From assembly GCA_024690885.1 (NCBI GenBank), contig JAILOI010000009.1, positions 1-48,913 of the forward strand: 48,913 nucleotides of DNA. Reading direction: 5' to 3'. The notes beneath the pieces were generated by a model. That model was not told where the DNA came from and ran no database searches. It worked only from the letters and a program-made list of their open reading frames with translations. The stretch comes from Lachnospiraceae bacterium. GTDB taxonomy: Bacteria > Bacillota > Clostridia > Lachnospirales > Lachnospiraceae. This document shows, piece after piece, positions 26,666 through 47,614 of this stretch (position 1 is the first letter of the stretch; every line of letters starts with the position of its first letter). The position numbers and the translations under genes were made by a program.

Positions 26666-27603
26666 TGGAACAACACTTAGGGATTGTAATTATCTTGTGG
26701 ACCATCAATGCACTCGTTGCCCTTGCCTATCTGCTCATCACCCTCTATCGCGACAAGCGAAGCGAGGCGAAGGAGGGGGTACATGATCGGCGCAAGACCT
26801 GGATTTTATTTATCATGATGCTTCTGTGTGTGGGCGTAGGCCCCCTGTTTTTGGGCATTGCCTGGTTGCTTCGCCATACCATCTTTCACAATCCGGTGGA
26901 TTTGGAGGATGCAGTATTCTCCAAGGATCGTGTGGATTCACGACATCCGGCAGATACGGAGCGGGAACGGAATATGGCGCCCATGGAAGAAGCCTTGGCA
27001 GTCAGTGACAAAAGCAGTTTACGTACCCTGATGATGAACGTCTTAAAAGGTGACGTTAGTGGATACTTAAGTTCCATTTCCAAGGCATTGAATTCTTCGG
27101 ACAGTGAGACCGCCCATTATGCAGCAACGGTGCTACGTGATGAGTTGAACAACTTTCGAACCAATGTGGCAACCATGGTGAATCGGATGGAAGAGGAATC
27201 CGGGGATGAGATGGTCTTAGACGGGCAGCAGCTGTTGGCCTATATGAATGAATACCTGATGCAGAATATCTTCACCTCCATGGAGCAGTTATCTTATGTC
27301 AATACCATGGAAGCGGTGGCACAACGGATGTATGACTATGAGGCGAACGCCCTGCATGCCGTACATTTTGAATATCTATGTCTGCGCCTATTGGATACAG
27401 ACAAGATGGAGGAGTGTTGCCTATGGTGCAATCGCGGGATGGAAGTATACCCGGAGGAATTAACCAGTTATACCTGCCTCCTTCGGTATTATTTTAAACA
27501 GGGAGATCGGGATGCTTTTATGGCAACCTTGGAATCCTTGAAAAAGTCCAATATCATCATCAACAATGAGGTGTTGGAACTGATACGAATGTTTTCAAAC
27601 TAA
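26662..27603 (+). CDS. PelE-like membrane protein (two TM segments plus helical/TPR-like region)
   Basis: Topology and position between PelD-like and downstream Pel genes. Confidence 0.6.
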   Translation: MMEQHLGIVIILWTINALVALAYLLITLYRDKRSEAKEGVHDRRKTWILFIMMLLCVGVGPLFLGIAWLLRHTIFHNPVDLEDAVFSKDRVDSRHPADTERERNMAPMEEALAVSDKSSLRTLMMNVLKGDVSGYLSSISKALNSSDSETAHYAATVLRDELNNFRTNVATMVNRMEEESGDEMVLDGQQLLAYMNEYLMQNIFTSMEQLSYVNTMEAVAQRMYDYEANALHAVHFEYLCLRLLDTDKMEECCLWCNRGMEVYPEELTSYTCLLRYYFKQGDRDAFMATLESLKKSNIIINNEVLELIRMFSN

Positions 27604-27636
27604 TACGAAAAGAATGTAAGAGAGGAGGATGTGCAT

Positions 27637-30189: not shown

Positions 30190-31966
30190 TCGCAGAAACT
30201 ATTTATCAATCACAATTATGATGGGCATCATTTTCTTCTTGTTCCTGTTTTCCGGAGCAGCCAAGAGTGCGCTGTCCCACTATGAGGTGAATGAATACGC
30301 CTGGGAAGATGGAACGCCAAAGGGGTGGAAGGCGGATGCCGGGGCAACCACCGAAACCCATGGGGTGTTGTTGTATTTAGGTGCCAATGATTCCATGTTA
30401 AAGCTCTGCCAGCGATACTGCATGTTGCGTCAGTATACCTGCTTAGATTCCATTGAAGCCTCGGTGGGCAAGGAACTGCAGCTGGTGGTGGTGGACGGCG
30501 TCTCCATGTCGGAAGAAACCTGGAAACAGGTGCAGGCTTACCACGAAGCAGGCATTCCCATTGTTTTTGGAAGTTTGCCTTCGAGCCGGCGCATCGGACG
30601 GGATATCGAACTTGCCGGAATGCTTGGCATCACCAATATCCAGGCCTCTGAAGTGGAACTATCCGGTATGACCCTCTATGAGAATTTCCTTGTGGGAGAC
30701 AAGGTCATCTATCAGGCGAAGACCAAGGAAGAACAAAAGCAGCAGGATTTGAATCTGTCCGTTCCCTGGTATGTTTTAAACTCCGGCACCAAGGTGTACA
30801 TGGACGGTTTATTGCCAGATACCTATGATGAATTGGATGCCGCTTATAAGCCACCTGTTGTTTGGCGTTATCGCAATGACAAGGGGTGTGTCTTTGCAGT
30901 GAACAGTGACTTTTTTACCTCGGATATCGGCCTTGGTATGTTGTGTGCCATGGAAAGCGAGTTATCGGAGCAATTCGTATATCCGATTATCAATGCCCAG
31001 AATTTGGTGGCACTGAATTATCCGACCTTCATGGAGGAGAATACCGATACGCTGCGGAAGCTCTATTCCAGAGATGTCACAGCCGTGCTGCGGGATTTGG
31101 TATGGCCGGGTATCGTTGCAGTCTCCGAGCATAATCACGGATATCCCAGTGTCTGTATGTCACCGAAATTGGATTATGGGGTAAACAACTGGGTAGATGG
31201 AGAGCGTGTGGCTTACTACCTGCAACTGTTGCGGGAACAGCACGGAGAAGCAGGTATTAACCTGTGTGCCTGGGCCGGGGCAACCACCGAAGAGAAGTTA
31301 GCGTACGATAAAACCTTTTTCGATACCTATGCCAAGGAGTATGCCTTCCAGTTTGCCTATGCCAAGGATTTAACACCCAAAGAGGCCAAGGAGTCCCTGG
31401 ATACCGCCGGATTTTCCCGGGTGCGGGCATTGCTTTGTGATTACAGTGAGGACTTACCTCTGGTGGATGTGGCAGAGGGAATGCTTCTGATGCAGGTGAC
31501 CAATGAGGGCTCTTCCCATACCTATCGGGAAGATTTGCGCATGCGAAGCATCCAAACGATTTTAGGGTATTCGGTGATTGGACAGGATTTCAGTCAGATT
31601 GTCTATCCATGGGGCAAAAGTGATCAGTGGGAAAAGGTGTTCGATCGGTTCTCCAGCTATACCAATACCTATTGGCGGGATTATCACTTCTATGAGGAGA
31701 CCACCATCAGCCAGGCGGCAGGGCGTACCAATCGCTTTCTGCAGCTGTCTTATGAGGTTACTTATGGAGATAAGGATATTACCATCACCTCAGATGCATC
31801 GGCCGAAGCGCCGGTTTACTTTGTGGTCAAGAGTGATACAGCAATACGAGATGTAGAAGGCGGCAGCTTCCAGCCGATGGACGCAAATCGCTGGTTAATA
31901 ACAGCAACGGATGCTACGGTTAGAATCGCCTGGGATTCGGATGCTGATTTGATGTTTTGGAGGTAA
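30182..31966 (+). CDS. DUF2194-like protein, probable polysaccharide deacetylase-type component (PelA-deacetylase position)
   Basis: N-terminal signal anchor; position directly upstream of pelF; VSEHNHGYPS segment. Confidence 0.6.
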   Translation: MISRRNYLSITIMMGIIFFLFLFSGAAKSALSHYEVNEYAWEDGTPKGWKADAGATTETHGVLLYLGANDSMLKLCQRYCMLRQYTCLDSIEASVGKELQLVVVDGVSMSEETWKQVQAYHEAGIPIVFGSLPSSRRIGRDIELAGMLGITNIQASEVELSGMTLYENFLVGDKVIYQAKTKEEQKQQDLNLSVPWYVLNSGTKVYMDGLLPDTYDELDAAYKPPVVWRYRNDKGCVFAVNSDFFTSDIGLGMLCAMESELSEQFVYPIINAQNLVALNYPTFMEENTDTLRKLYSRDVTAVLRDLVWPGIVAVSEHNHGYPSVCMSPKLDYGVNNWVDGERVAYYLQLLREQHGEAGINLCAWAGATTEEKLAYDKTFFDTYAKEYAFQFAYAKDLTPKEAKESLDTAGFSRVRALLCDYSEDLPLVDVAEGMLLMQVTNEGSSHTYREDLRMRSIQTILGYSVIGQDFSQIVYPWGKSDQWEKVFDRFSSYTNTYWRDYHFYEETTISQAAGRTNRFLQLSYEVTYGDKDITITSDASAEAPVYFVVKSDTAIRDVEGGSFQPMDANRWLITATDATVRIAWDSDADLMFWR

Positions 31967-31975
31967 GGCAATTCC

Positions 31976-33394
31976 ATGAAAATCTGTATGGTGGCAGAGG
32001 GCTGTTACCCCTATGTGGTGGGCGGTGTATCCAGTTGGATTCACAGTATGATTCAGTCCTTTCCGGAATATGAATTTATCATATTGGCCATTGTGGCGGA
32101 TCGCAGTACCCGGGGAAAGTTTAAGTATGAACTGCCGGAGAATGTTTCGGCGGTCTATGAAGTTTACCTAAACGACGAGGACTGGGGTGAGAGCAAGGGT
32201 GCATCCTTTCACCTGAAGGACAAGGATTTGCAAGCCATGGAAAGCTTGCTGCTCAATGAGAATATTCAGTGGGAACAAATCTTTACCCTGATGGAAAATC
32301 CCAAGCTGTCCCTGGATGATCTGCTTATGGGCTATGACTATATGCAAGCAGTGAAGGAGTGCTATCGCCGGTATTATTCCGATGTATCCTTCTCGGACTT
32401 TCTGTGGACCATGCGCTCCATCTATTTGCCCATGCTGCATATTCTGCAGTTTCAGGTGCCGAAGGCCGACCTCTATCATTGCGTTGCCACCGGGTACGCA
32501 GGATTATTGGGCGCCATGGCCAAGCACAAGTATGGCTGTGGATTGCTGGTATCGGAGCACGGCATCTATACCCGTGAGCGCGAAGAGGAAATCATTCGTG
32601 CGGAATGGGTTCAGGGAATTTACAAAAACATCTGGATTGATCAGTTTCGTAAAATGTCGCTGGTGGCCTACCAGCGGGCGGATCTGGTGACCAGTTTGTA
32701 TGAACATGCAAGAGAGTTACAGATTGAATTGGGTTGTCCACCCCAGAAGACCATGGTAACGCCCAACGGAATCAATGCAAAACGCTTTTCCGAAGCTCCG
32801 GGCAAGTTACCGGAGGATGAGGGATTTGTGAATATTGGTGCGGTGGCCCGTGTCACTCCAATCAAGGACATTAAGACCATGATTCGTGCCTTTGGTTATG
32901 CCAAGGAGAAGGTGCCCAATTTAAAACTCTGGATTATGGGACCGACGGATGAGGAAGAAACCTATGCCAAGGAATGCTTTGATTTGGTAAACACCATGCA
33001 CATTCCGGATGTGATTTTTACCGGACGTGTCAACACGGTAGAGTACATTGGACGTATGGATTTCACCATTCTTACCAGTATCAGCGAGGGTCAGCCCCTG
33101 ACCATCCTAGAGGGCTATGCCGCAGGTAAGCCGGCCATCGCAACGGATGTGGGCAACTGCCGGGGCTTGATCTACGGAGAAAAGGACGGCTTAGGAGAAG
33201 CCGGAATTTTGACCCATATTATGAATGTGGAAGAAATCACCATCGCAATGGTGAATTTGGGAAGCAGCCCAAGGTTGGTAGAAAAGATGGGCGAGGTAGG
33301 AAAGCAGCGTGTAATGGAGAAGTATACCATCGAACACATGAAGGAAACCTACCGCAAGATTTATCAGGATTTTGAACAGTCGAAGGAGACGTAA
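31976..33394 (+). CDS. pelF: GT4 family glycosyltransferase PelF
   Basis: MKICMVAEGCYPYVVGGVSSWIHSMIQSFPEYEFIILAI; GNCRGLI; gene order pelF-pelG. Confidence 0.9.
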   Translation: MKICMVAEGCYPYVVGGVSSWIHSMIQSFPEYEFIILAIVADRSTRGKFKYELPENVSAVYEVYLNDEDWGESKGASFHLKDKDLQAMESLLLNENIQWEQIFTLMENPKLSLDDLLMGYDYMQAVKECYRRYYSDVSFSDFLWTMRSIYLPMLHILQFQVPKADLYHCVATGYAGLLGAMAKHKYGCGLLVSEHGIYTREREEEIIRAEWVQGIYKNIWIDQFRKMSLVAYQRADLVTSLYEHARELQIELGCPPQKTMVTPNGINAKRFSEAPGKLPEDEGFVNIGAVARVTPIKDIKTMIRAFGYAKEKVPNLKLWIMGPTDEEETYAKECFDLVNTMHIPDVIFTGRVNTVEYIGRMDFTILTSISEGQPLTILEGYAAGKPAIATDVGNCRGLIYGEKDGLGEAGILTHIMNVEEITIAMVNLGSSPRLVEKMGEVGKQRVMEKYTIEHMKETYRKIYQDFEQSKET

Positions 33395-33400
33395 CAAGGT

Positions 33401-34846
33401 ATGGCGGGTATTGGCGTTAAGCTCAACAGACTTTATGAAAAAAATACGTTGATTACCACCTTAAGTGGAATCAGTTACAGTATGATTATCACCATTGCGC
33501 CGATGATTATCGGAATGCTGATGATCTGGGCAATGAGCTTTGTGCTGGGATTTTCGGATTTGGATTATGCCAGACGTGAGTTGTTCTCTTGTACGGTGTT
33601 GTATATCTTTATCTTTGCATTGGTGGTTACCGCCTCCTTAAATGCAGTGATTTCCCGGTACATGGCAGATGTGATTTTCCAGGAACGCTATGGAGAGATT
33701 ATGGCATGCTTTTATTACTGCCTGCTGTTAATCGTGGTGATTGCCATACTGCCCATGGTGCCCTTTTTCCTGCATGAATATCGGGTGGGCGGCGTGGACG
33801 GCGTGTTTATTTTCCTGTCCTTTTTCAGCTGCATTGCACTGGTGTTGACCTTCTACTGCATGACGTACTTATCCATTTGCAAGGACTACGCCAAGATTTC
33901 CTTGTTCTATTTGATTGGACTGGGCATTGGATTTTTACTGGCCTGGGCCCTGCATGACTGGTTTTCGGTGGATACCATCTATGCCATGTTAAGTGGTTTG
34001 GGTGTGGGATTTCTGTTTACAGCGGCGCTCGAGTATGCCCAGTTGTTAAGCTACTTCCGGGACAACAGCCATAATTACACGGCAGTAAATGCCCACTTTC
34101 GAAAGTATTGGAAGCTGATCATCGCCAATACGGCTTATATCCTGGGACTGTACTGCCACAACTTTGTGTTTTGGACCACGGACCTTCGGATGGAGGTGGT
34201 ACATACCTTCGTCTGTGCCCAGCCTTTTGATATGGCAACCTTCTTGGGTCTGTTGACCAACATTACCGCAACGACGATTTTCATCAGTAGTGTGGAGCGG
34301 CGGTTTACCTTCCGGTATCGAAAGTATTCGGAGATGGTCATCGGTGGTCGTCTATCGGATATTGAAGCGGCTCAGAAGCGATTGTTTCGCCAGCTGTCTG
34401 TGGAACTGATGGGCTTGGTACGGACTCAGTTTATCATTTCCGTTGTGCTGTATTTAGTTTTTGTGGTTGTCCTTCCGCAGCTTGGAATCTCCGGTATGGT
34501 GATGCAGATTTATCCATGTATGGCGGTGGGCTATTACATCCTGTTTTTGATGTATGCCGCATTGAACTTTTTATATTACTTCAATGACTTAAACGGTGCG
34601 TTGATGGTGGCGCTGGGATTTCTGTTTACGGATGTGGCCGTCTCCATTGTTGCCACCGGATGGCAGGAAATCTGGTATGGCATGGGGCTTGTGGCCGGTG
34701 CCTTTGTGGGTTGGACCATCGGTTATCTGCGCCTGCGTTGGGTAGAGAAGAATTTGGAACGACATATCTTCTGTGAGGCACACCTCTTGAATCGGGCCAA
34801 GGGGGCGCGTCCATCAGATATGGTATATGAAAGAAAGAAGGCTTAA
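33401..34846 (+). CDS. pelG: Exopolysaccharide Pel transporter PelG
   Basis: MAGIGVKLNRLYEKNTLITTLSGISYSMIITIAPMIIGMLMIWAMSF; 12-TM type; follows pelF. Confidence 0.9.
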   Translation: MAGIGVKLNRLYEKNTLITTLSGISYSMIITIAPMIIGMLMIWAMSFVLGFSDLDYARRELFSCTVLYIFIFALVVTASLNAVISRYMADVIFQERYGEIMACFYYCLLLIVVIAILPMVPFFLHEYRVGGVDGVFIFLSFFSCIALVLTFYCMTYLSICKDYAKISLFYLIGLGIGFLLAWALHDWFSVDTIYAMLSGLGVGFLFTAALEYAQLLSYFRDNSHNYTAVNAHFRKYWKLIIANTAYILGLYCHNFVFWTTDLRMEVVHTFVCAQPFDMATFLGLLTNITATTIFISSVERRFTFRYRKYSEMVIGGRLSDIEAAQKRLFRQLSVELMGLVRTQFIISVVLYLVFVVVLPQLGISGMVMQIYPCMAVGYYILFLMYAALNFLYYFNDLNGALMVALGFLFTDVAVSIVATGWQEIWYGMGLVAGAFVGWTIGYLRLRWVEKNLERHIFCEAHLLNRAKGARPSDMVYERKKA

Positions 34847-35019: not shown

Positions 35020-36239
35020 AACCATCCATTTTATTTGTCATGAATACAATGGGACAGGCCGGAGCAGAGATGGCATTGATCTCCATGCTCCGCAAAATCG
35101 ATCCTGAGGAATATGATATTTCCTTATACGTGTTGTTGGGCCAGGGAGAGCTCTTTGATCGCATTCCGCCCTATGTGCATATCCTGAATCGTCATTACTC
35201 GACCGATTCGGTGTTATCCACCCGGGGGCTGTTTCGTCTTGGCTTCCATCTGCTGCATCGGGGCTTATGCTATGGGGCATTTGTGCCATGGATTCCTTAT
35301 GCCATCCGAAATTATCGGGCTATGAAGAAGCAGCGGGGACGAATCCAGCTGGATAAGTTGTGCTGGAAGATGCTTTCCGATGGTAGCCGCAGATTCCATA
35401 AGGAGTATGATTTGGCGGTTGCTTTCATTGAGGGAGCATCCACCTATTATGTGGCCAACCACGTACGGGCAAAGCAGAAGGCTGCCTTTGTACATGTGGA
35501 TTACCATCTGGCGGGATATACCACAGATTTGGATGGCAATGCCTATGACAAGATCCATCAGATTTTTGCTATCTCAGATGAAGTGAAGAAGGCCTTCCTG
35601 GGGGTTCATCCGGAATGCCGGGAGAAGACCAAGGTATTCCACAACATCCTAGATCAAAATCGTATCCGTACACTTGCCAAGGAAGGGGATGGGTTTACGG
35701 ATGGATACCGGGGAATTCGATTGTTGACGGTGGGACGATTGAACGTGCAGAAAGCCTACGAGATTGCCATCGAAGCCTTGGCGTTACTTCGGGATTGGGG
35801 ATATGAGGTACGCTGGTATGCCCTGGGGGAGGGCCCCATGCGTGAGGATTTGGAACGTAAGATCATTAAGCGTGGGTTGAAGGAGGATTTTCTGCTCTTA
35901 GGAGCCATGGAGAATCCCTATCCCTATTTTTTGAATTGTGATATCTATGTGCATGCCACCCGTTTTGAAGGCAAAAGCATTGCGGTGCAAGAAGCCCAGA
36001 CCTTAGGTTGCCCCATTATCGTCAGTGATGTAAACGGTAACCGGGAACAGGTGGAGCATGAGGTGGACGGACTGATTTGTGCCTTGCAGCCGAAGGCTGT
36101 GGCAGAGGCCATCGTCTATATGATCAAACATCCGATTGAGCGGGCCAAGATGGCCAAGCTTGCAGGGGAGAAGGAATTAGAACATGCGCAGGAACTGGAA
36201 GCATTATTGGCCTGCGCCAGAGGGGAGTCATCCGTATGA
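35016..36239 (+). CDS. GT4 family glycosyltransferase
   Basis: NTMGQAGAEMALISML; VGRLNVQKAYEIAIEA; ATRFEGKSIAVQEAQTLGCPIIVSDV. Confidence 0.92.
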   Translation: MKPSILFVMNTMGQAGAEMALISMLRKIDPEEYDISLYVLLGQGELFDRIPPYVHILNRHYSTDSVLSTRGLFRLGFHLLHRGLCYGAFVPWIPYAIRNYRAMKKQRGRIQLDKLCWKMLSDGSRRFHKEYDLAVAFIEGASTYYVANHVRAKQKAAFVHVDYHLAGYTTDLDGNAYDKIHQIFAISDEVKKAFLGVHPECREKTKVFHNILDQNRIRTLAKEGDGFTDGYRGIRLLTVGRLNVQKAYEIAIEALALLRDWGYEVRWYALGEGPMREDLERKIIKRGLKEDFLLLGAMENPYPYFLNCDIYVHATRFEGKSIAVQEAQTLGCPIIVSDVNGNREQVEHEVDGLICALQPKAVAEAIVYMIKHPIERAKMAKLAGEKELEHAQELEALLACARGESSV

Positions 36240-37048
36240 AGAAAGACTTATTGATTATCATACCTGCCTACAATGAGGAGGAGTGCATCGAGGATGTGTT
36301 GGACGCACTGGAGTGCCCCGAGATTCGGGAAATCGCTGATGTACTCATTATGAATGATGCCTCCAGCGACAATACCAGTTGGATTGCCAAGAAGCGGAAA
36401 TACAAGGTGATTACCCATGTCTTCAACTTAGGCTATGGAAGCGCCATTCAGTTGGGCTATAAATATGCGGTACGTCGCCGCTATGATTACGTCATCCAGA
36501 TGGATGCAGACGGCCAGCATGATGTCAACAATATTCCACGTATCTATGAGGAACTAAAGAAGGCAGATGCAGATGGTCGCTATCCGGATATTGTGTTAGG
36601 TTCCCGCTTTCTGCCGGGAAGCTCCGAGTTTCACGTGGGTGGATGCAAAAAGTTCGCCATCCGCTTGTTCCGGCACTATATCCGCAGACATACCCATGTT
36701 AGCATTCAGGATCCCACCAGTGGATTGCAGGGTCTTCGGTTTCCGGCCTTTTTGTATTACTCCAAGTATGGACACTTTGATGAACGTTATCCGGATGCCA
36801 ACATGATTCTACAGATGCTGTTGTTGGGCTATCGGATTCGGGAGATTCCGGCTACCATGCATGCCAGAGAAACCGGCAAGAGCATGCACTCCGGCTTACG
36901 TCCCATCGGCTATATGCTGCATATGGCTTGTTCCTTGTTATGGATCACCTATCAGTATCAATTTAAGAAAAAGGATGCCGGAATAGGAGAGAGCGGTGCG
37001 ATTTCTACGAAAAAATATACCGACGAAAAAACGGAAATTTACGGATAG
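36236..37048 (+). CDS. GT2 family glycosyltransferase
   Basis: LLIIIPAYNEEECIEDVLDAL; VIQMDADGQHD; TSGLQG. Confidence 0.93.
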   Translation: MKKDLLIIIPAYNEEECIEDVLDALECPEIREIADVLIMNDASSDNTSWIAKKRKYKVITHVFNLGYGSAIQLGYKYAVRRRYDYVIQMDADGQHDVNNIPRIYEELKKADADGRYPDIVLGSRFLPGSSEFHVGGCKKFAIRLFRHYIRRHTHVSIQDPTSGLQGLRFPAFLYYSKYGHFDERYPDANMILQMLLLGYRIREIPATMHARETGKSMHSGLRPIGYMLHMACSLLWITYQYQFKKKDAGIGESGAISTKKYTDEKTEIYG

Positions 37049-38159
37049 TGGAGCAGTTTTTCAAAATCCTTATCAGGGCTGGTATCGGCCCTATCTGTTT
37101 CCGCTGAATCAAGCGGTGGACTGGGAGGAACTTCCCTGGGTGATGGTGGAAGCGGAACCCCTGTGCCTGTTGGAGTTTGATCTATCCGCCTATGCATCCG
37201 GTAAGATATCGGAGGAGGGGTTGCTTCGGTGCAAGGAGATTTTGGACTTTTTTCAAAGCCATCACAAGCAGATGATCCTCCGTTTTGCCTATGATTATGA
37301 GGGCAAGGCGATGGTCAAGGAGCCAACCGATGTTGAAATCATCTATGAACATATGAAGCAGGTGGCCCGGGTGGTTGTGGACTATGCGCGCAGCCTGGTT
37401 TGTATCCAGGGCTTATTTGTAGGCAACTGGGGAGAGATGCATTCTTCCCGGTATGATACCACCACAAGCTTGGATGGGTTGTATGAGACGTTCCGGGATG
37501 CTTTTGGAGAGCGTGTGATATTAGGCGTACGGCGATTGGAGTTATTCCTTCGCTGGAGCGCACAGGATGCACGCATTAGTTTATTTGATGACGGAATCTG
37601 TGGGTCGGAGAATGACCTGGGGACCTATGAGATGTCCAGGTATGAGGCCTATGAGATTCTGCAGCAGAAGATGGGATGCCTTCCGGTGGGGGGTGAACTG
37701 CTTTCCATGGGCCTGCTGGATGGATGCTTTGATGCGGAGCGGGTGCGAAAGACCTTTCAAGGAATGCAGCTATGTTATCTCAACAGTCAGTATGAGAAGC
37801 GTGCCCTGGAGCTTTTGGATACCTGGGGCCTTCGGGCGGAACTGAATCTTCGGATGGGGTATCGCCTTCTTGTGACAGATGCCAAACTGCAAGATGGCAG
37901 ATGGCAGATTTGTGTGGAGAATGTGGGGTTTGGTGGCCTGGCATTTCCACTGACCCTATTCCTGTTTGGAGATGGGCAGTTGTGTGAACAACAATATTGG
38001 GGGGACGGAATCAAACCGGGGGAGCGGATATCGGTGATGTTTGCCGGAGAATGGAAGGCAGGCACCTATGATATCCAGGGTAGTATCTATGACGCTGCTA
38101 TTACCTTTGCCAATGAAGGTGGTATGGCGGTACGAATCGGTGAGGTGTTACATGCGTAA
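36996..38159 (+). CDS. DUF4832/DUF4874-type protein without signal peptide
   Basis: NPYQGWYRP…GLFVGNWGEMHSSRY…SLFDDGICGSENDLGTY; GTG start with AGGAGAG SD, 53-nt overlap with the GT2 gene. Confidence 0.7.
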   Translation: MRFLRKNIPTKKRKFTDSGAVFQNPYQGWYRPYLFPLNQAVDWEELPWVMVEAEPLCLLEFDLSAYASGKISEEGLLRCKEILDFFQSHHKQMILRFAYDYEGKAMVKEPTDVEIIYEHMKQVARVVVDYARSLVCIQGLFVGNWGEMHSSRYDTTTSLDGLYETFRDAFGERVILGVRRLELFLRWSAQDARISLFDDGICGSENDLGTYEMSRYEAYEILQQKMGCLPVGGELLSMGLLDGCFDAERVRKTFQGMQLCYLNSQYEKRALELLDTWGLRAELNLRMGYRLLVTDAKLQDGRWQICVENVGFGGLAFPLTLFLFGDGQLCEQQYWGDGIKPGERISVMFAGEWKAGTYDIQGSIYDAAITFANEGGMAVRIGEVLHA

Positions 38160-39588
38160 CGTATTCCTTCGACTGTTGTTGATTTTGGGCTTGACCAGTG
38201 CTTTGGGCATGGGAGCCGTAGTGAATGAGCAATGGTTGCAGTCTCTGTATCATATGAAGTTCCAGCCGGCTGATTTGGCGGCCGGTGGAGAGAAACTGGA
38301 GAATCCGGATTGCGGATGGTATGAGATGTTTGGGTATGAGCTTTCCGACAATGGAAGCCTGCTGTCCTTGATTGCATCTCATATTCGTTCGGCGGATACG
38401 TCCAATGCTCTGGTACTGCTACAAGTGAACCTAAAGGCCTATGCTTCCGGTGATATCAGTGCGGCGGCGTTGGGCCAGCTGGATGATATTCTTCGCCTCT
38501 GGGAGGAGGAAGGTTACCATCTAATCTTACGGTTTGTCTATGATTGGGAAGGCCGGGGACTTGCTACAGAACCCGGGGAGCGCTCCATCATTGAGAGACA
38601 CATGCAGCAGGTGGCCGGGGTGGTGAATGCCCACAAAGACAGTGTCTATGTGGTACAAGGCGTCTGTATCGGTAATAATGGGGAGATGAATGCTTCCAAG
38701 TATATGGACCCTGAGGATTTGCGCAGCTTAATGAACACCTATGCCACTGCCTTAGACCCCGAGATATTTCTGGCGGCACGGACCCCGGAACATATTCGAA
38801 TCATACGTAAATCCGAGACACCGCTGTCACAGGAGGACGCCGGTCATGAGACCATGGATGCACGTCTGGGCTTGTTTGATGATGGGATGCTTGGCTCCGA
38901 AACGGATTTGGGTACCTATGGGGATGCGGATTATCCCCTGGATGCGGAGTTTGCCGGGAAGAAAAGCCGGCAGCAGGAGCTGGCTTATATCAATCAGCTG
39001 TGTCGCTATGTCCCCTGTGGTGGGGAATGCGTATACGATACCCCTTATTCCGACGGAGCGGCGGCCATTGAGACACTGAATACCATGCATGTCAGTTATT
39101 TAAACCAGATGTATGATCCGACGGTACTTGCGAAGTGGAAAAGAACTGCTTACAACGGTGGGGAAGCGGGATTTGCCGGGAAAAGTGTCTATGATTACAT
39201 TGGTACCCACCTGGGATATCGCTATGTGGTAACGGATGTGACGGCAGCTCATGAGCTTCTGGGAGCGTCGGATACCACGGTTACGATGCACGTCACCAAC
39301 GTGGGATTTGCTCCTGCGTATCGGAGGTATGATTCCGCTTTGGTTTTGTACAATGAAGCGGGAGATGTGGTGTTAGAGCAGCCGGTGGAGGTTGATAATC
39401 GCAGTTGGCAACCGGGGGAGGAAATCTCTCTGGAAATGCATCTGCAACCGGGAAGTTTGGAACGCGGACGTTATCTGTTGTATTTCCAACAACAAGATGG
39501 AGGAAGCAAGCAATGGATTTCCTATGGCAATGGTACAACGACAGACCATCCCGGCGTATATTTAGGAACGATGGAACTTAAGGATTGA
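38152..39588 (+). CDS. DUF4832/DUF4874-type protein with N-terminal signal anchor
   Basis: MRNVFLRLLLILGLTSALGMGAVV; NPDCGWYEMFG…GVCIGNNGEMNASKY…LFDDGMLGSETDLGTY; paralogue of the preceding CDS; start moved to ATG at 38152. Confidence 0.75.
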   Translation: MRNVFLRLLLILGLTSALGMGAVVNEQWLQSLYHMKFQPADLAAGGEKLENPDCGWYEMFGYELSDNGSLLSLIASHIRSADTSNALVLLQVNLKAYASGDISAAALGQLDDILRLWEEEGYHLILRFVYDWEGRGLATEPGERSIIERHMQQVAGVVNAHKDSVYVVQGVCIGNNGEMNASKYMDPEDLRSLMNTYATALDPEIFLAARTPEHIRIIRKSETPLSQEDAGHETMDARLGLFDDGMLGSETDLGTYGDADYPLDAEFAGKKSRQQELAYINQLCRYVPCGGECVYDTPYSDGAAAIETLNTMHVSYLNQMYDPTVLAKWKRTAYNGGEAGFAGKSVYDYIGTHLGYRYVVTDVTAAHELLGASDTTVTMHVTNVGFAPAYRRYDSALVLYNEAGDVVLEQPVEVDNRSWQPGEEISLEMHLQPGSLERGRYLLYFQQQDGGSKQWISYGNGTTTDHPGVYLGTMELKD

Positions 39589-39605
39589 TACGGAGATTTG
39601 AGACT

Positions 39606-41141
39606 ATGGAGTCACGCTCACGCACGGAAAATTCAGCGAGAAATTCTTCCGTTGCATTGATATCACAACTGTTATCCCTGCTGATGGGATTCTTACTTCG
39701 GATTGTGTTTACCCACACCCTAAGCAAGGATTATGTGGGAGTCAATGGCTTGTTTTTGGATATTATCTTCATTCTCTCCCTATCGGAATTGGGCGTGGGA
39801 AGTGCCATTACCTATGCACTATACGGACCCATTGAACGGCAGGATATCGAAAAACAAAAAAGCCTGATGGCTCTATTCCGGAAGTTTTATCACGGCGTCG
39901 CATTACTGGTACTGGCGCTGGGATTGCTGCTGATTCCTTTTATGGATGTCATCATCAAGGAACCGCCGGAAGTGAATCACCTGACGCTGATTTATCTGTT
40001 TTATCTGGCCAATGCGGTATCCAGTTATTTTATGATCTACAAGCGGACCTTGATGGACGCCCATCAGCTGTCCTATATTGGTACGCTGTATATGACAATA
40101 TCCTGGGTGATTCAGGACGCCATCCAGATTGTGGTACTTCTTACCACCCACAATTTTATTTTGTATTTATCCATCAATCTGGTGACCACCATCACCACCA
40201 ATATCTTAATTTCCAGGAAGGCAGATCGGATGTATCCCTTCCTCAAGGAGAAGCAGGTGGCAGCGGTTCCAAAGGAGGAACTGTGTGAAATCAAGCGCAA
40301 TGTGGGTGCCATGTTTTTACACAAGATGAGTGCTGTTATTGTCAATAATACGGACAATCTGTTAATTTCCGCCTTCGTTGGTATTGTCAGCGTTGGAAAA
40401 TATTCCAATTACCTGCTGATTACCCAGTCCTTGCGCACCATTGTGAAAAACTTCTTTCAGGGGATTATGGCAAGTGTGGGAAATCTGGGAGTATCCAAAG
40501 ACCGGATGCGCCTGGGTGAGATTTTTCACACCACCTTGTTTGTGAATCAGTGGGTGAGCTGCTTTTGCACCATTATGTTGTTTGAGATTTTCAACCGCTT
40601 CATCGCCATCTTTTTCGGTGCGGTGTATGTGTTTGAACTGCCGGTGGTGGCAATGATATGTATTAATTTCTATTTGGGTTCTCTGCGGGAAGGCATCCTG
40701 GTGTTTCGGGATTCCCTGGGGGTTTTCTGGTACGATCGCTACAAGGCCGTGGCTGAAGCTGTGGTGAATCTGGTGGCCTCCATCATTTTGGCAAAACTAT
40801 ACGGAACCGCCGGAGTATTTCTTGGCACCATCATTTCCACCTTAAGTACCTCGGCCTGGGTGGAGCCCTATGTGCTGTATAAGTATCGCCTGCAGCGACC
40901 GGTATGGGAATACTGGAAGCGGATGTTATTATATGTGCCGGTGGGGGGTGTGATTTTTGCCCTGACCCACAGCATCTGTTCCTTGTACCGGGGTAGCCTC
41001 TGGCAGGAACTTCTATACCGTGCGGGAATTTGTTTGATCCTTCCCAATGTGTTGCTGTTGCTGGTGTATATGCGTAGCAGGGAGTTTCAATTTTTGTTGC
41101 AAAAAGGATGGTCCTTATGGAAGAATCGAAAAGAAAGCTAA
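39606..41141 (+). CDS. Oligosaccharide flippase / polysaccharide biosynthesis protein (MOP superfamily, Wzx-like)
   Basis: NSSVALISQLLSLLMGFLLRIVFTHTLSKDYVGVNGLF; multiple TM helices. Confidence 0.85.
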   Translation: MESRSRTENSARNSSVALISQLLSLLMGFLLRIVFTHTLSKDYVGVNGLFLDIIFILSLSELGVGSAITYALYGPIERQDIEKQKSLMALFRKFYHGVALLVLALGLLLIPFMDVIIKEPPEVNHLTLIYLFYLANAVSSYFMIYKRTLMDAHQLSYIGTLYMTISWVIQDAIQIVVLLTTHNFILYLSINLVTTITTNILISRKADRMYPFLKEKQVAAVPKEELCEIKRNVGAMFLHKMSAVIVNNTDNLLISAFVGIVSVGKYSNYLLITQSLRTIVKNFFQGIMASVGNLGVSKDRMRLGEIFHTTLFVNQWVSCFCTIMLFEIFNRFIAIFFGAVYVFELPVVAMICINFYLGSLREGILVFRDSLGVFWYDRYKAVAEAVVNLVASIILAKLYGTAGVFLGTIISTLSTSAWVEPYVLYKYRLQRPVWEYWKRMLLYVPVGGVIFALTHSICSLYRGSLWQELLYRAGICLILPNVLLLLVYMRSREFQFLLQKGWSLWKNRKES

Positions 41142-42385
41142 CAACTGCACAAGTGCGATTCCTCAATCTGATGAAGGCCTGGTTTTTGCAGGAAGAGGAA
41201 GGGGTCTTCTCGGAGTTTAGCGACGCAGAGATTGGTGGCGTGGTGGCCATTGCGCGAGAGCAGGGACTGCTGGGATTTGTTTATGCCTATCTCTATACCT
41301 ACCACCGCAATCGTGTTTCTACCAAGTGGCTGGATGCCTTGCAACGGGAAATTAAGCCACTGATTACCAATAACTACAGTTTATGGCAGCAAACCATCCA
41401 TCTGTTTCGCAAGATTCATGAGGCAAAGCTGCCCTGCCTACTACTCAAGGGACCGGCAATCGCAAATTATTATTCCATTCCGGAGTTGAGAAAATCCGGC
41501 GATGTGGATTTGTGGATGTATCAACCGGATACGCCGGCCGCCCGTGGGGAAGTGTATTACGGGCAGGATTTCATAACCTTGAATGAACTGCTGAAGGCCG
41601 ATGGTTATGTAACCAACCCCAGCCAGCATGCCAATCATCACATCGGTTATCTGAAGGACGGCTGTGGAGAAGTGGAAGCCCATGCCTTGTGGATGGAGGA
41701 TTTTCACAAGCATTGGGTGAATGAAGAAATTGCCTCCTACGCCCAGAGTGCCTATCAGCGGGCTATGGAATTGGAGTTATTCCCGGGAGAACACATCAAA
41801 ACCTTAGCACCCGGGGATTTAGCGCTGCAGATGTTGTTACATATGTTGCAGCATTATCTGACCCAGGGCTTTGGATGGAAGTTTCTCTGTGACTGGACAG
41901 CCATCTGGAATCATCCGGATACCATGGCAGCCATAGAGGAAGTGAAACAGAAGGTGAGGGACTGGCATCTGGAAACCTTTGTCAGTTATTGTTGTTGGAT
42001 TTCCAACAAATATTTGGGCATGAAGGATGCGCCGGCCCAGGCACTTTTGCTGCGGGAGGTGCGCGAGGACATTGCCATGGAATTGATGAGCGAGATGTTT
42101 GCGGCCGGTGAATTCGGTGACGGAGAAGAAGGCCGTATGGTGGCGCCGGAGGGCAAGGGGGTCCTTGGGCTGGTGATGGAATTCCATCATCAGATGCGCC
42201 GAAATCATTATGAAGCATCGAAATCCTATTGGAAGTGGCCCTATTTATGGGTGGTGACTTTGGTGGAATTCATTCGTAACAATCATGCCATACGAAATAC
42301 GTCCACGAGACAGATTATCGCCAATGCAAGACGGCGGGGAAAGCTTCGGAGACAAATGCAACTTTTTAAAGAAGACGGGCAGTAA
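41117..42385 (+). CDS. Nucleotidyltransferase family protein (PF14907-type)
   Basis: LLLKGPAIANYYSIPELRKSGDVDLWM motif; in-frame alternative ATG at 41108. Confidence 0.82.
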   Translation: MEESKRKLTTAQVRFLNLMKAWFLQEEEGVFSEFSDAEIGGVVAIAREQGLLGFVYAYLYTYHRNRVSTKWLDALQREIKPLITNNYSLWQQTIHLFRKIHEAKLPCLLLKGPAIANYYSIPELRKSGDVDLWMYQPDTPAARGEVYYGQDFITLNELLKADGYVTNPSQHANHHIGYLKDGCGEVEAHALWMEDFHKHWVNEEIASYAQSAYQRAMELELFPGEHIKTLAPGDLALQMLLHMLQHYLTQGFGWKFLCDWTAIWNHPDTMAAIEEVKQKVRDWHLETFVSYCCWISNKYLGMKDAPAQALLLREVREDIAMELMSEMFAAGEFGDGEEGRMVAPEGKGVLGLVMEFHHQMRRNHYEASKSYWKWPYLWVVTLVEFIRNNHAIRNTSTRQIIANARRRGKLRRQMQLFKEDGQ

Positions 42386-42397
42386 AGGGAGACAGAT

Positions 42398-42862
42398 ATG
42401 GAGAAGACAGATGTAGTGAAGCTGTTGCAAGAGGGGCAGACGGTGCAGATTATGCCCAAGGGGTTTAGTATGTATCCGCTGATTATTCCGGGACGGGATT
42501 CGGCGATTCTTCGTTCCATCGAAGATACGGAAGGTCATCGGGGCGATGTGGTGTTGTTTCGTCGGGAAGATGGAACCCTGGTGTTACATCGCATCTGGCA
42601 GGTGAGCAGCGCCGGTTACTTTTTCGTGGGGGACAATCAATTGGAAATTGAGGGCCCCATCAATCGTCGGCAGTTGTTGGGAATTGCATCGGGATTTGTG
42701 CGGAAGGGCAAAACCTTTTCCACAAAGCATCCCGCATATCGCATCATAAGTGGATTATGGCTTGTGTTGCGGCCGTTTCGCTATGTGATTGAAACGCCGG
42801 TGGCACTGGTAAGGAGAGCATATGGACATTGCAAAAAACTTTCTTCGGAAAAAATGCGGTGA
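42398..42862 (+). CDS. S24/S26 family (signal-peptidase-like) protein
   Basis: PKGFSMYPLI serine motif; RGDVVLFRREDGTLVLHRI histidine motif; VGDNQ. Confidence 0.82.
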   Translation: MEKTDVVKLLQEGQTVQIMPKGFSMYPLIIPGRDSAILRSIEDTEGHRGDVVLFRREDGTLVLHRIWQVSSAGYFFVGDNQLEIEGPINRRQLLGIASGFVRKGKTFSTKHPAYRIISGLWLVLRPFRYVIETPVALVRRAYGHCKKLSSEKMR

Positions 42863-43955
42863 GTATACGTACTTGCTGCCATATGGACAGGCCGTAGTGG
42901 AACAGGGCCGAAGCGTCAAGCTGGATGCCCATGCAACCCACCTGTTGGATGTGCTCTTAGAGGCAAAGAATGTGGAGGAAGCAACGCAGTCATTGCTGTC
43001 GCAGGGCGAGATGGAAGCGGACTTTCGTCATCTGATTGCGACATTAGAACAGGCCGGTGCACTTTCTGTGGATGAGGAGCCCCAGCTTTCGGTCAGGGAG
43101 GAGACGATGCGCTTTTCCATCGGTGGGCGGAGGATATCCTTCGTTGGGGCACCACGGTACGTGGCTCGGGAACTTTTGGATTTTTGCGTTGAGACTTCGG
43201 AGGATGCCCCGGATGGACGTTTTGTTTTGTGCGGCGGAAATCCGCCCCATCATGGAATGGGCGAAGTGTTGGTACATCACGAGGATTTACTGATTCTAAG
43301 AGAGGATGCATGGTTGTATTATCTCTATCCCAATCATCGGTATTTACGGGAGATGGTGATGGATGTGGATGGACAAGTGGCCAATGCGTATCTGCCCTTT
43401 TTGGATGAGGATACGCCGGCGGTAACAGCAGAGATTTTTCTTGCCATGCGCCAGGCCTTTTTCTATGGGGCCGCTCTTGCCAATCGGTATGCAATTCATT
43501 CTGCGTCCGTATTATATGAGGGGAAGGCCTATTTGTTTTCCGGTCCCTCCGGCATGGGGAAATCCACTCAGGCCAATTTATGGAAGCAGTGCTTCGGCAC
43601 AGAGATATTCAATGGGGATGTTAATCTTGTTTCCATAGAAGCAGACGGTGCCTATGTATGGGGACTGCCCTGGAACGGAACTTCCGGGATTTATCGGGAT
43701 GGCAGAGTGCCACTGGGTGGTATCATATATTTGCGGCAGTCGTTGGAAAATCAGGTGGAAGTGCCGGATGCGGGAGATCTGGTGGTAGCAACGGTACAGC
43801 GGTTGATTTCGCCAACCTACACCGAAGGACTGTATCAGAAGGCGTTTTCCTTTGCCAAGCAGCTGCAAGGGAAGATTCCCATGTGGCGGTTGTATTGCAA
43901 TCCCACGCCGCAGGCGGCAGAAATCATGAAGGAATGCATAGATGAATATCGTTAA
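42822..43955 (+). CDS. PqqD-like N-terminus fused to HPr kinase-like (HprK-like) P-loop domain
   Basis: YLLPYGQ…KLDAHATHLLDVLLEAKNVEEATQSLL; YEGKAYLFSGPSGMGKSTQANLWK; AAGGAG SD. Confidence 0.8.
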   Translation: MDIAKNFLRKKCGEYTYLLPYGQAVVEQGRSVKLDAHATHLLDVLLEAKNVEEATQSLLSQGEMEADFRHLIATLEQAGALSVDEEPQLSVREETMRFSIGGRRISFVGAPRYVARELLDFCVETSEDAPDGRFVLCGGNPPHHGMGEVLVHHEDLLILREDAWLYYLYPNHRYLREMVMDVDGQVANAYLPFLDEDTPAVTAEIFLAMRQAFFYGAALANRYAIHSASVLYEGKAYLFSGPSGMGKSTQANLWKQCFGTEIFNGDVNLVSIEADGAYVWGLPWNGTSGIYRDGRVPLGGIIYLRQSLENQVEVPDAGDLVVATVQRLISPTYTEGLYQKAFSFAKQLQGKIPMWRLYCNPTPQAAEIMKECIDEYR

Positions 43956-45702
43956 GAAATGTTATGAAAAAATGAAAGACGGCACCCTGAAGCGCATGGT
44001 GCAGGAGACCATCTGGATTTATGCCTATGCCAAGCGGTATTTTCCACAGATGGTGTTATATACCGCACTCGGAATGGGCGGTATCCTGTTAAGCTTTGGT
44101 TCGAGCCTGGTGTCCAAGGATATGATTGATATCATTACCGGACAGCGGGTGGGGGAGTTAATGAAGTACTTCCTCGTTACCATCGGACTTGCAGTGGTGA
44201 GTTTGCTTTTTACCCAGATTACCACCTTTTTGAATATGATCATCTCACAGAAGGTGGACAACGAGCTGCGCCAGGAGATGTTTGAAAAAATCATGGTGAC
44301 GGATTGGGAGAGCATTACCAAGTACCACAGTGGTGATTTGCTGGCGCGTTGGGCCGGCGACACCTCGTTGATTGCGTCCGGGTTATTAAACTATATTCCC
44401 AATGCCATTATGGCACTGTTGAAGTTTTTTGGTGCCTTGTTTATTGTGATTCGTTACGACTGGACCTTTGCCGTGTTTGCCCTGCTGGGTGCACCGGTGA
44501 GCTTGTTTATGTCCCGGTTTTTGATGTCACGCATGCGAAACAACAACGATCGTTCGGCCCAGATGCAGGCACGGATGAGCGGGTTTAACCAGGAGGCCTT
44601 CGTCAACATCCAAACCATCAAGGCCTTTGATTTAGTGCCACTGTATATTTCTTACTTAAAGGATATCCAGAAGGATTACTTGGAGATGCGGGTGGACTTC
44701 CAGAAGTTGTCCATGAAGACGTCCATCATTATGTCGGTGGTGGGCATGATTGTGTCCTACAGTTGTTATGGTTGGGGAATTTATCGTGTGTTTAGCGGAG
44801 CCATCACTTATGGAACCATGACCTTGTTTCTGTCCATGTCCGGAAATCTGACGGCGGCGTTGAATACCTTGATTTCCTTGGTCCCATCGGTGATTTCCAT
44901 GACGACTTCTGCAAGGCGACTGATGGATATCGAAGAGATGCCGACGGAGGATTATTCCAAGCGTTCCGAAGCATTGGCGTTTGCCGATGCTCACAAGCAG
45001 GAGGGAATTTCCGTAACGTTGGAACAGATGTCTTATACCTATCACACCGGTACCCATGTGTTTGAGAAGACCGGGTTTGAAGCCCATCCCCATGAGATTG
45101 TAGCTTTGGTTGGCCCCAGCGGAGAAGGGAAGACCACCATGCTTCGTCTGTTGCTTGCTCTGTTAAAGCCCCAGGAAGGACGCTGCATCCTCTCATCGAA
45201 CACCGGGGATGCACTGGAGATTGCGCCCTATTCCAGACAGTTGTTTGCTTATGTGCCCCAGGGCAATACCATGTTTTCCGGAACCATTGCGGAAAACTTA
45301 CGGAAGGTAAAGCCTGAGGCTTCGGAAGAAGAATTGCGTCAGGTGTTACAGATGGCTTGTGCCTGGGAATTTGTGGAGCAGATGCCGGATGGCATGTATT
45401 CCTCCCTGCAGGAGCGGGGCGGCGGTATTTCCGAGGGGCAGGCCCAGCGTTTATCCATTGCCAGAGCCCTGCTTCGGCAGGCCCCCATCCTTCTATTGGA
45501 TGAAGCCACCAGTGCCTTGGATGTGGAGACGGAGCGCCGGGTATTACGCAACATTATGAAGGATACCTATCCGAGAACCTGTATTGTAACTACCCATCGT
45601 CCCACGGTATTATCCATGTGCGACCGGGTATATGGTATTGCCGGAAAGCAATGTGTGGTACTAAGTCAGGAAGAAGTGCAGAAGCGCATTATGGATTTTT
45701 AG
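43942..45702 (+). CDS. ABC transporter with fused permease and ATPase domains (exporter type)
   Basis: Six TM region; Walker A GPSGEGKTT, signature ISEGQAQRLSIARAL, Walker B ILLLDEATSALD. Confidence 0.93.
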   Translation: MNIVKKCYEKMKDGTLKRMVQETIWIYAYAKRYFPQMVLYTALGMGGILLSFGSSLVSKDMIDIITGQRVGELMKYFLVTIGLAVVSLLFTQITTFLNMIISQKVDNELRQEMFEKIMVTDWESITKYHSGDLLARWAGDTSLIASGLLNYIPNAIMALLKFFGALFIVIRYDWTFAVFALLGAPVSLFMSRFLMSRMRNNNDRSAQMQARMSGFNQEAFVNIQTIKAFDLVPLYISYLKDIQKDYLEMRVDFQKLSMKTSIIMSVVGMIVSYSCYGWGIYRVFSGAITYGTMTLFLSMSGNLTAALNTLISLVPSVISMTTSARRLMDIEEMPTEDYSKRSEALAFADAHKQEGISVTLEQMSYTYHTGTHVFEKTGFEAHPHEIVALVGPSGEGKTTMLRLLLALLKPQEGRCILSSNTGDALEIAPYSRQLFAYVPQGNTMFSGTIAENLRKVKPEASEEELRQVLQMACAWEFVEQMPDGMYSSLQERGGGISEGQAQRLSIARALLRQAPILLLDEATSALDVETERRVLRNIMKDTYPRTCIVTTHRPTVLSMCDRVYGIAGKQCVVLSQEEVQKRIMDF

Positions 45703-45709
45703 CAAGAAA

Positions 45710-45737
45710 AAAGACAGAGGAGAAATCCTCTGTCTTT
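45710..45737. terminator. Bidirectional terminator between convergent genes
   Basis: AAAGACAGAGG-AGAAAT-CCTCTGTCTTT flanked by A/T tracts. Confidence 0.88.
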
Positions 45738-45743
45738 GTTTGA

Positions 45744-46202
45744 TTAATCGATGTTTGGATAATTTGGAGTGCCGGTTTTCTCGCAGTTTAAAATCACCGG
45801 AGACGGAGCACCAAGTGCAATGGTGGATGCCTGATCAGCTGCGTTTACAAATACCTTGTAGGTAACGGTATCTCCGGAGTATTCGCCATTGGCATGGTGG
45901 ATACGACGTACGGTTACAATATTACCGGATACGCTGACTTCGTAATTGCCGCTGCCTTCTGCGTAAGCACTCACAACAGGTGCACCGAAGGTGTACTGTA
46001 CGGTACAGGATTCGGAAAAATGGCTGACCGCACTGCTGTGTACCAAATGCATTTCATAGACATGAGAAGCACCGTTCCAATCCTGAACACTCTGTACGGA
46101 AACAGACCAACAGGTGGCTGTAGCGATGGAGCCGCTGGCTGCAAAAATGCTCTCTGACATGTCGTCACTCATAACTACTACTGGTTGTTCATAAGTCTTC
46201 AT
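45744..46202 (-). CDS. 152-aa protein with leader-like N-terminus; candidate substrate/precursor of the neighbouring PqqD/HprK/ABC module
   Basis: MKTYEQPVVVMSDDMSESIFAASGSIATATCWSVSV…; no Sec signal peptide; own strong promoter and terminator. Confidence 0.7.
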   Translation of the reverse strand: MKTYEQPVVVMSDDMSESIFAASGSIATATCWSVSVQSVQDWNGASHVYEMHLVHSSAVSHFSESCTVQYTFGAPVVSAYAEGSGNYEVSVSGNIVTVRRIHHANGEYSGDTVTYKVFVNAADQASTIALGAPSPVILNCEKTGTPNYPNID

Positions 46203-46257: not shown

Positions 46258-46286
46258 ATTATATTGTTTCTGGAATTATGCGTCAA
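46258..46286 (-). promoter_or_regulatory. Near-consensus sigma-A promoter (TTGACG-N17-TATAAT) for the 45744-46202 gene
   Basis: -35 at 46281-46286 and -10 at 46258-46263, read on the minus strand. Confidence 0.85.
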
Positions 46287-46411
46287 TTCCCTTTTCCCGG
46301 TTCCTTGGCAAATGTGGATGAGTGGTCCTTTACCCAAACTTCCTAGATGATGAAAAAAATGGTAAAATAAGAAAAAGTGGAGTTTGCATGTTGCATGGTG
46401 AGGGGTCACAT

Positions 46412-47614
46412 ATGAAAATACGCAAAGAATATATGATTAAGTATATTGAAGGAATTCCGTATTTACTTCCGTATGGACAGGGCATTGCCCAGTCCTTCCG
46501 GAGCCTGCGCTTAGATGCAGATGAAGTGTTCCTATGGGAATACATGCTGCGTGGCTATGATGAGGTCGAATGCATGCATCGCCTATGCGCACACTTAGGG
46601 GTTGGAGAAACCCATCGGAGTGCGGTAGAAGCGAAGGTGACGGATTTTTTCTCCATGCTGGAACAATTGCAGATTATTGACCGGAGGTCCCATCAACTCA
46701 TTGGACCGCTGGAGGATTATGACCTGTTTGAAGTAGCCGGGCTTTTGATTTGCTACAGTGGTCCCAAGGAATACATTGCCCGGGAGTTAGAACCGTTTCG
46801 GATGGATTCGGTGATGGTGCCGGCCAATTGGAAAGACGGAGAGTGCCTAGAACGCCCCATACAGCGGGTGGAGATTGTATTATCCGGTCCGCGGATTTTG
46901 GCAGTCGGTGAGATTCTGATGCGTACACCGGAAGTGATTGTGTATGCAGATGAGCGGCACTATTATTATCTGTTTCCACAGAATACCTGCGTTCATGAGA
47001 TGCGGGTACGCAAGAATGGTTCCAAGGCGGTGATTTTTGTCAGCAATCTGGTTGGACGAGAAGATGTCATCACCCGGGAAGTGTACGAGGCGATGTACCA
47101 AAGCTTTTTGGTTTACGGACTGGCACATCACAAATATGCGATTTCTTCCTTATCCCTGCAGTATCAGAAGCGAGGCTTTCTGTTTTTGGAAAGTGACGCA
47201 GAGGATTGGAGTAATTTGATTGAACTGCTTTCCACGATGTCCAACGTACAACGTTGCAATTATCGGACCACCATGGTAGAACTTTCCGGTGAGGAAGCGC
47301 GGATGTGGAACATCCCATGGGGCAGCTGCAACGATGCACCCGGACGGGAGTCCATGCATTTGGGCGGTATTGGCCTTTTGCGTCAATCGAAAACCAATCA
47401 TGCGGTTATCAAAACGCCGAGCGAACGCATCTTACGGACCAGCTTCGGTGTGGTTTCACCACAGTTTTCTGCAGATTTGGTGGAGCACACCATCGATTTT
47501 TGTACCCGCTTATACGATGTGGTTCCAATCTGGCGATTGCACTGTAATCAGTCACCGGAAGCTTTGGCATTCATTCAACGCATTGTGGACGATGAATTAT
47601 CTGATGAAACATAG
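46412..47614 (+). CDS. PqqD/HprK-like paralogue lacking a P-loop
   Basis: YLLPYGQ N-terminus and IGLLRQS…PIWRLHCNQSPEA C-terminus match the 42822-43955 protein, but the P-loop position reads FLFLESDAEDWSNLIEL; GAGGGG SD before the ATG at 46412. Confidence 0.7.
   Translation: MKIRKEYMIKYIEGIPYLLPYGQGIAQSFRSLRLDADEVFLWEYMLRGYDEVECMHRLCAHLGVGETHRSAVEAKVTDFFSMLEQLQIIDRRSHQLIGPLEDYDLFEVAGLLICYSGPKEYIARELEPFRMDSVMVPANWKDGECLERPIQRVEIVLSGPRILAVGEILMRTPEVIVYADERHYYYLFPQNTCVHEMRVRKNGSKAVIFVSNLVGREDVITREVYEAMYQSFLVYGLAHHKYAISSLSLQYQKRGFLFLESDAEDWSNLIELLSTMSNVQRCNYRTTMVELSGEEARMWNIPWGSCNDAPGRESMHLGGIGLLRQSKTNHAVIKTPSERILRTSFGVVSPQFSADLVEHTIDFCTRLYDVVPIWRLHCNQSPEALAFIQRIVDDELSDET

Follow-up and report, generated by a model that had tools for sequence, protein, structure and literature searches.

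The 152-residue protein encoded at positions 45744–46202 (minus strand) of a 48,913-nucleotide stretch of Lachnospiraceae DNA (the whole stretch analysed, hereafter the window) is, in our assessment, probably the precursor of a maturation and export system resembling that of the linear polyphosphorylated peptides (LPPs), and would most likely act as an accessory of a Pel-type exopolysaccharide. That the enzymes encoded in the adjacent cassette process this protein is the firmer part of the proposal, and we consider it very probable. The protein begins with a 24-residue leader that recurs on unrelated proteins across some 20 related genera, and genomes that encode this leader nearly always encode the RRE–kinase fusion of the cassette and encode PelG as well.

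A real gene under purifying selection

The substrate gene (P0001) runs from an ATG at 46202 to a stop codon at 45744. The first-pass annotation of this DNA had proposed the same open reading frame; its ends, the quoted N-terminus and the contexts of the three cysteines (C31, C66 and C140) all proved exact, and the frame lies on the minus strand. The gene is, as that annotation had it, convergent with an ABC exporter gene (43942–45702, plus strand) and divergent from a second HprK-like gene (46322–47614, plus strand). A bidirectional terminator-like hairpin with T-tracts on both strands separates the two convergent genes (45710–45737). About 55 bases before the ATG lies a promoter-like TTGACG-17-TATAAT (46258–46286, minus strand; 11 of 12 matches), in a region where the number of promoter matches is not above shuffled expectation.

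Homologues in other genomes share 69–70% and 55–57% identity with the protein over its full length and retain its start region. Comparison with the homologue at locus L004 gave a pN of 0.19 and a pS of 0.73. Such a marked deficit of non-synonymous relative to synonymous change shows that the product is a protein maintained by selection; hence, the 152-residue frame is a real gene under strong purifying selection. Four weak tblastn matches to the body of the protein alone (L021, L023, L024 and L025) were discarded as unrelated frames. Pfam and NCBIfam scans of the substrate and of the other precursors returned sub-threshold matches only. The N-terminal part holds no hydrophobic signal segment (highest 11-residue Kyte-Doolittle mean, 1.48), in line with the earlier annotation, and Sec export of the substrate was rejected on this ground.

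A leader module common to unrelated proteins

The leader, MKTYEQPVVVMSDDMSESIFAASG (residues 1–24; 46131–46202, minus strand), was delimited from column counts in 43 sequences, from identity across body types and from its disorder in the AF2 model. In total, 43 distinct leader-bearing proteins were gathered from genomes of the Lachnospiraceae family, and they follow the pattern Y-x-x-P-x-V ... E-G-V/I-Y/F-A-A-S-G. E17, S23 and G24 are invariant, so that SG closes the leader in 43/43 proteins. Y4 is found in 41/43, P7 in 42/43, and V, I or L at position 9 in 41/43; in the substrate this first half reads Y4-x-x-P7-x-V9, a putative RRE-binding motif. Only V or I occurs at position 19 and only Y or F at position 20; a small residue (A/G/S/N) occupies position 22 in 42/43, and M, L or T occupies position 21 in 9/43. 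The likeness to small Lachnospiraceae proteins starting MK.YEKP...EGVYAASG, noted in the first-pass annotation, is genuine: the protein at L005 reads MKKYERPDAVVIDEVSEGVYAASG, and many others match.

A 24-position profile of 26 leaders (A2; E ≤ 0.001) retrieved 39 leader frames from 23 of the 397 family genomes. In the window's own assembly (81% complete), a 15-leader profile found a single copy. At the level of the order, additional leaders came solely from further genomes of the Lachnospiraceae family, and at the level of the class just two weak matches lay outside it. One 49-residue frame from another family of the class (L139, 1501–1647) has a leader-like start (MKNYIKPTANVNSFVSENVIAASG). 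A literature search for the motif string EGVYAASG, or for the gene combination in Lachnospiraceae, returned nothing.

Leaders from different body types share an identity of 0.53, and those of the large group 0.54 among themselves; for the mature parts of different types the value is 0.23, which is the shuffled baseline. Since the leader is equally conserved within and across types, and mature identity is at the shuffled level, the leader is a module common to unrelated bodies. The N-terminus is thus better conserved than the body, as a leader-dependent substrate, the role suggested by the first-pass annotation, should have it; the association with PqqD-, HprK- and ABC-type genes that was part of that suggestion is likewise supported, by this modularity and by the co-occurrence described below. 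The system offers a short modular leader already borne by unrelated domains.

Mature parts of several types

Clustering of the 43 mature parts, most of which are domain-sized (80–140 residues), gave groups of 30 (loosely linked by phmmer), 8, 3, 1 and 1. The group of eight shows the pattern CDSxYM...FGCLGCPA...CGL...KRKPSWE and the group of three VCRYGR...DTCQACSA...KGCPD. Judged by their sequences, the leader proteins comprise at least three mutually unrelated body types. The group of three consists of Cys-rich precursors of 77–82 residues with the same leader (L087, 7893–8153; L089, 7949–8227; L093, 9936–10184); with their pattern VCRYGRKQ...DTCQACSATDG...GCPD, they come closest to peptides among the products of the system. 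Two leader proteins of one type (L047, 9765–10145; L094, 9834–10352) belong to one genome, G146, and lie away from any detected cluster. The former has a weak ubiquitin-like match (PF00240, E 1.5e-3), below the cut-off.

In the window's protein, residues 32–143 (45774–46109, minus strand) are predicted to form a beta-sandwich with weak resemblance to CBM2 modules. The AF2 model was built from a three-sequence alignment (mean pLDDT 67.9, pTM 0.65), and the leader is disordered in it. CBM2 modules were the best PDB matches in Foldseek, at a weak level (E 1.8e-4, TM 0.4–0.6, TMt up to 0.59). Searches of the mature domain against Pfam and PDB sequences and with sequence profiles, CBM2 included, gave no match.

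A conserved enzyme cassette beside the leader genes

Next to the substrate gene, four genes form a tight run on the plus strand (41108–45702). The first encodes a PF14907 nucleotidyltransferase containing SGDVDLW (41108–42385; E 7.3e-31). It is followed by an S26 protein resembling SipW/archaeal-type signal peptidases (42398–42862; TIGR02228 E 3.3e-7, SipW NF046067 2.2e-4) with S24, H64 and D79, then by a fusion of a PqqD-like RRE (approximately residues 1–80) to an HprK-like kinase with the P-loop GPSGMGKST (42822–43955), and by the MsbA-like ABC exporter (43942–45702), in which domain scans found no C39 peptidase domain. In Foldseek, PDB structures of the PEPCK/HprK fold match the AF2 model of the fusion; PDB sequence searches with the kinase and with the S26 protein found no relative. 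Upstream, a Wzx/MATE-like polysaccharide flippase (39585–41141, plus strand), a GT2 gene and two DUF4874/DUF4832 genes (together 36236–39588, plus strand) are conserved neighbours of the system. The longest frames called for the DUF4874/DUF4832 pair (36996–38159 and 38041–39588) overlap.

The ABC, RRE-HprK, S26 and PF14907 genes recur beside leader genes in most loci, and some leader genes lie apart from the cassette in genomes that carry it elsewhere (G034, G304, G022 and G029). Across the system, the kinase P-loop is intact in all copies, and the Ser/His/Asp residues of the S26 protein are conserved in 24/25 aligned frames; the remaining one is an artefact read out of frame. RRE-HprK was found in 21/23 leader-positive genomes versus 1/374 others (Fisher p about 1e-31, with the genomes, mutually related, treated as independent). 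Of the two leader-positive exceptions, G213 has an RRE-HprK homologue in its leader locus by tblastn, and in G146, which is 68% complete, none was found. The sole genome scored as having the kinase and no leader (G096) has a degenerate leader gene adjoining the ABC gene.

The second gene taken for HprK-like in the first-pass annotation (46322–47614, plus strand) is indeed of the RRE-HprK-like kind, but its P-loop is destroyed, which makes it a pseudokinase. In 3/3 genomes examined from the genus, G049 among them, it adjoins holA; other copies are found at L004 (5518–6768) and L131 (9348–10556).

Relation to LPP biosynthesis

LPPs are RiPPs described for the lppAKBSDN cluster of Paenibacillus alginolyticus, made with an RRE protein (LppB), a kinase (LppK), a SipW-like SpI peptidase (LppS), an MsbA-like exporter (LppD) and an NTP transferase (LppN) (PMC13381572, Nat Commun 2026). 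Their precursors, one to three per cluster, have 35–200 residues, a conserved leader YxxPxVLxHQxIxFETxxS and variable C-termini (PMC13381572). Cleavage by LppS is RRE-dependent and occurs after T-1, F-3, E-2 and T-1 being important for it; Ser3 of LppA is multiply phosphorylated, and the biological role of LPPs was left open (PMC13381572).

The Lachnospiraceae system shares this constant gene set (RRE, HprK-like kinase, SipW-like peptidase, NTP transferase and MsbA-like exporter), the YxxPxV leader motif, the combination of a conserved N-terminus with a variable C-terminus, a number of one to three precursors per cluster, and the setting in a polysaccharide locus. Columns of the RRE that we matched by motif to LppB N33, D70 and F74 hold N or D in 29/33, D in 25/33 and F in 27/33 copies, and the window's RRE has Asp at the column so matched to N33. 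The differences are equally clear. The RRE is discrete in LPP clusters, whereas in the copies of the present system it forms the N-terminal part of the kinase protein. When the LPP leader consensus is compared with the 43 leaders, the first half, YxxPxV, is present, while the second half is E-G-[VI]-[YF]-x-x-S-G, so that xFETxxS is replaced by EGVYAASG with its invariant E17, S23 and G24. The products are mutually unrelated and mostly domain-sized, the hosts are a family of Clostridia rather than Bacilli, precursor genes are also found off-cluster, and the link to Pel is near-obligate. Because the RRE is not discrete, we call the system LPP-like rather than LPP; it is most likely a phospho-RiPP-like relative with a fused RRE and mostly protein-sized products.

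Proposed leader recognition, cleavage and export

Overall, we infer a pathway in which the RRE at the N-terminus of the kinase would bind the Y4-x-x-P7-x-V9 motif of the leader. The kinase domain would then phosphorylate the invariant Ser23 (codon 46134–46136, minus strand; 43/43), possibly repeatedly, as in LPPs; the proposal is made by analogy with LppA Ser3 (PMC13381572). In LPPs the modified serine lies 18 residues past the motif tyrosine, and in the Lachnospiraceae leader the invariant serine lies 19 past it. The PF14907 nucleotidyltransferase may elaborate the phosphate. The SipW-like peptidase would cut off the leader, with the cut most likely directly ahead of Ser23, and the ABC protein would export the mature domain of approximately 130 residues.

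By analogy with LPPs, the cut most likely falls between residues 22 and 23, since position 20 (-3) is aromatic and position 22 (-1) small, as they are there. Cleavage after residue 21 (V-Y-A) is the less favoured runner-up because 9/43 leaders have M, L or T there. The mature start SIATATC, after Gly24, envisaged in the first-pass annotation, is not favoured: the ABC protein has no C39 domain and a SipW-like peptidase is present, which together fit a cut before Ser23 better. Hence, the leader is probably removed by this peptidase and not by a GG-type exporter.

SipW-type peptidases process secreted biofilm matrix proteins, as in the SipW/TasA pair. The present system has in common with it the type of peptidase and the putative export of matrix proteins, but SipW substrates have Sec signal peptides, unlike the hydrophilic, RRE-type leader of Lachnospiraceae. 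The system suggests a route, independent of Sec and addressed through the RRE, by which bacteria of the gut and rumen could deliver proteins of the biofilm matrix.

Association with Pel-type exopolysaccharide

The link to Pel was no part of the first-pass annotation. A block of Pel-type genes occupies 24479–34846 on the plus strand of the window and encodes an SDR-domain protein, a PelE-like protein, a DUF2194 protein, a PelF-like glycosyltransferase (DUF3492) and PelG (E 3.4e-133); the PelE- and PelD-like assignments are presumptive, made from gene order. PelG (PF16933) was detected in 23/23 leader-positive versus 6/57 leader-negative genomes (p 7e-15, related genomes again counted as independent). 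By coordinates, in 18/23 leader-positive genomes it lies on the contig of the leader, 4–28 kb away. Within the window's genus, neither a leader gene nor PelG was found in G049.

Roseburia is a genus of Lachnospiraceae. According to Whitfield et al. (PMC7112168), its Pel loci sit in larger clusters with nucleotidyltransferase genes, the product of which is left open, and streptococci and clostridia, too, have DUF4832 among their Pel accessory genes. As in those Gram-positive loci (Roseburia, GT1/GT2/PTase/NTase), the window combines PelG, a PelF-like protein, DUF4832 and a nucleotidyltransferase in one large locus; unlike in the window, leader proteins, RRE-HprK and an S26 peptidase are not named in the passages of that paper considered here.

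We regard a secreted accessory of the Pel matrix, for instance a matrix or polysaccharide-binding protein, as the most likely role of the mature protein, at about an even chance; Pel co-occurrence alone is no proof that the protein binds or modifies Pel. The almost perfect tie between LPP-like machinery and a defined exopolysaccharide operon, together with its putative action on folded domains instead of small peptides, makes the role directly testable. More speculatively, a phosphoserine at the new N-terminus could be the covalent attachment point of a glycan, linked through a phosphodiester bond by the joint action of the kinase and the PF14907 nucleotidyltransferase, with a Stealth-type sugar-phosphate transferase taking part at some loci. 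Exported carriers would then yield protein–polysaccharide conjugates for the Pel-type matrix, an idea that we consider improbable.

Alternative explanations

Two alternatives concern the machinery. In double-glycine (class II bacteriocin-like) secretion, the leader is cleaved behind its small terminal residues by the C39-type ABC exporter itself; the adjacent ABC gene and a leader that has such residues and no hydrophobic stretch would suit this. Such a mode is highly improbable here, as the ABC protein lacks a C39 domain, the leader ends in SG and not in GG/GA, the leaders carry the YxxPxV RRE motif, and the cluster has an S26 peptidase of its own. Still less credible is a lasso peptide precursor, with leader removal by a B2 transglutaminase-like protease and a cyclised core. 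Paeninodin-type lasso clusters share with the system the YxxPx[LVI] motif, the PqqD-like RRE, the HprK kinase and the NTP transferase (PMC13381572; PMC7533575); their RRE recognizes [Y/W]xxPx[L/V], and they have an ABC exporter as well. In the window system, by contrast, the motif has Tyr rather than Trp and the products are protein-sized, with mature parts mostly of 80–140 residues. In addition, the B2 protease (PF13471, E ≤ 0.001) is missing in the genome of the window itself and in 20/24 system genomes, and its matches in the other 4/24 never lie on a leader contig. No macrolactam cyclase (Asn synthetase-like) was seen among those window genes to which Pfam scans were applied.

The two others accept the cassette and dispute the role of the product. 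If the leader were a cytoplasmic tag, the substrates would stay inside and the phosphorylated protein would regulate the Pel or polysaccharide machinery. A phosphorylation-based control of Pel has been suggested for another accessory kinase, which is CotH-like (PMC7112168). We find this reading unlikely, as a dedicated exporter and a leader peptidase belong to the constant gene set, and the Ser/Thr/Val beta-rich mature part, with its cysteines, models as a beta-sandwich resembling extracellular modules. Alternatively, secreted conflict proteins (bacteriocin-like antagonists) could share a common export system, with Pel as a genomic hitch-hiker. The diversity of mature parts, the small Cys-rich type-C products and the patchy distribution speak for such proteins, whereas the presence of PelG in 23/23 carriers, the joint absence of Pel and leader from G049 and the lack of any toxin family match speak against them. 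Of the four, this is the one to which we give most weight, although it remains doubtful.

Related loci

At L136 (8254–11779; genome G221, same family), where a search for YxxP near the N-terminus gave no plausible precursor, a discrete RRE (the sole one seen), a separate HprK-like kinase, an S26 protein and an ABC protein are encoded in the canonical LPP layout. A gene of the Stealth family (sugar-phosphate transferase) lies near the system in eight loci, for example at L089 (14694–15767) and L004 (6773–7864).
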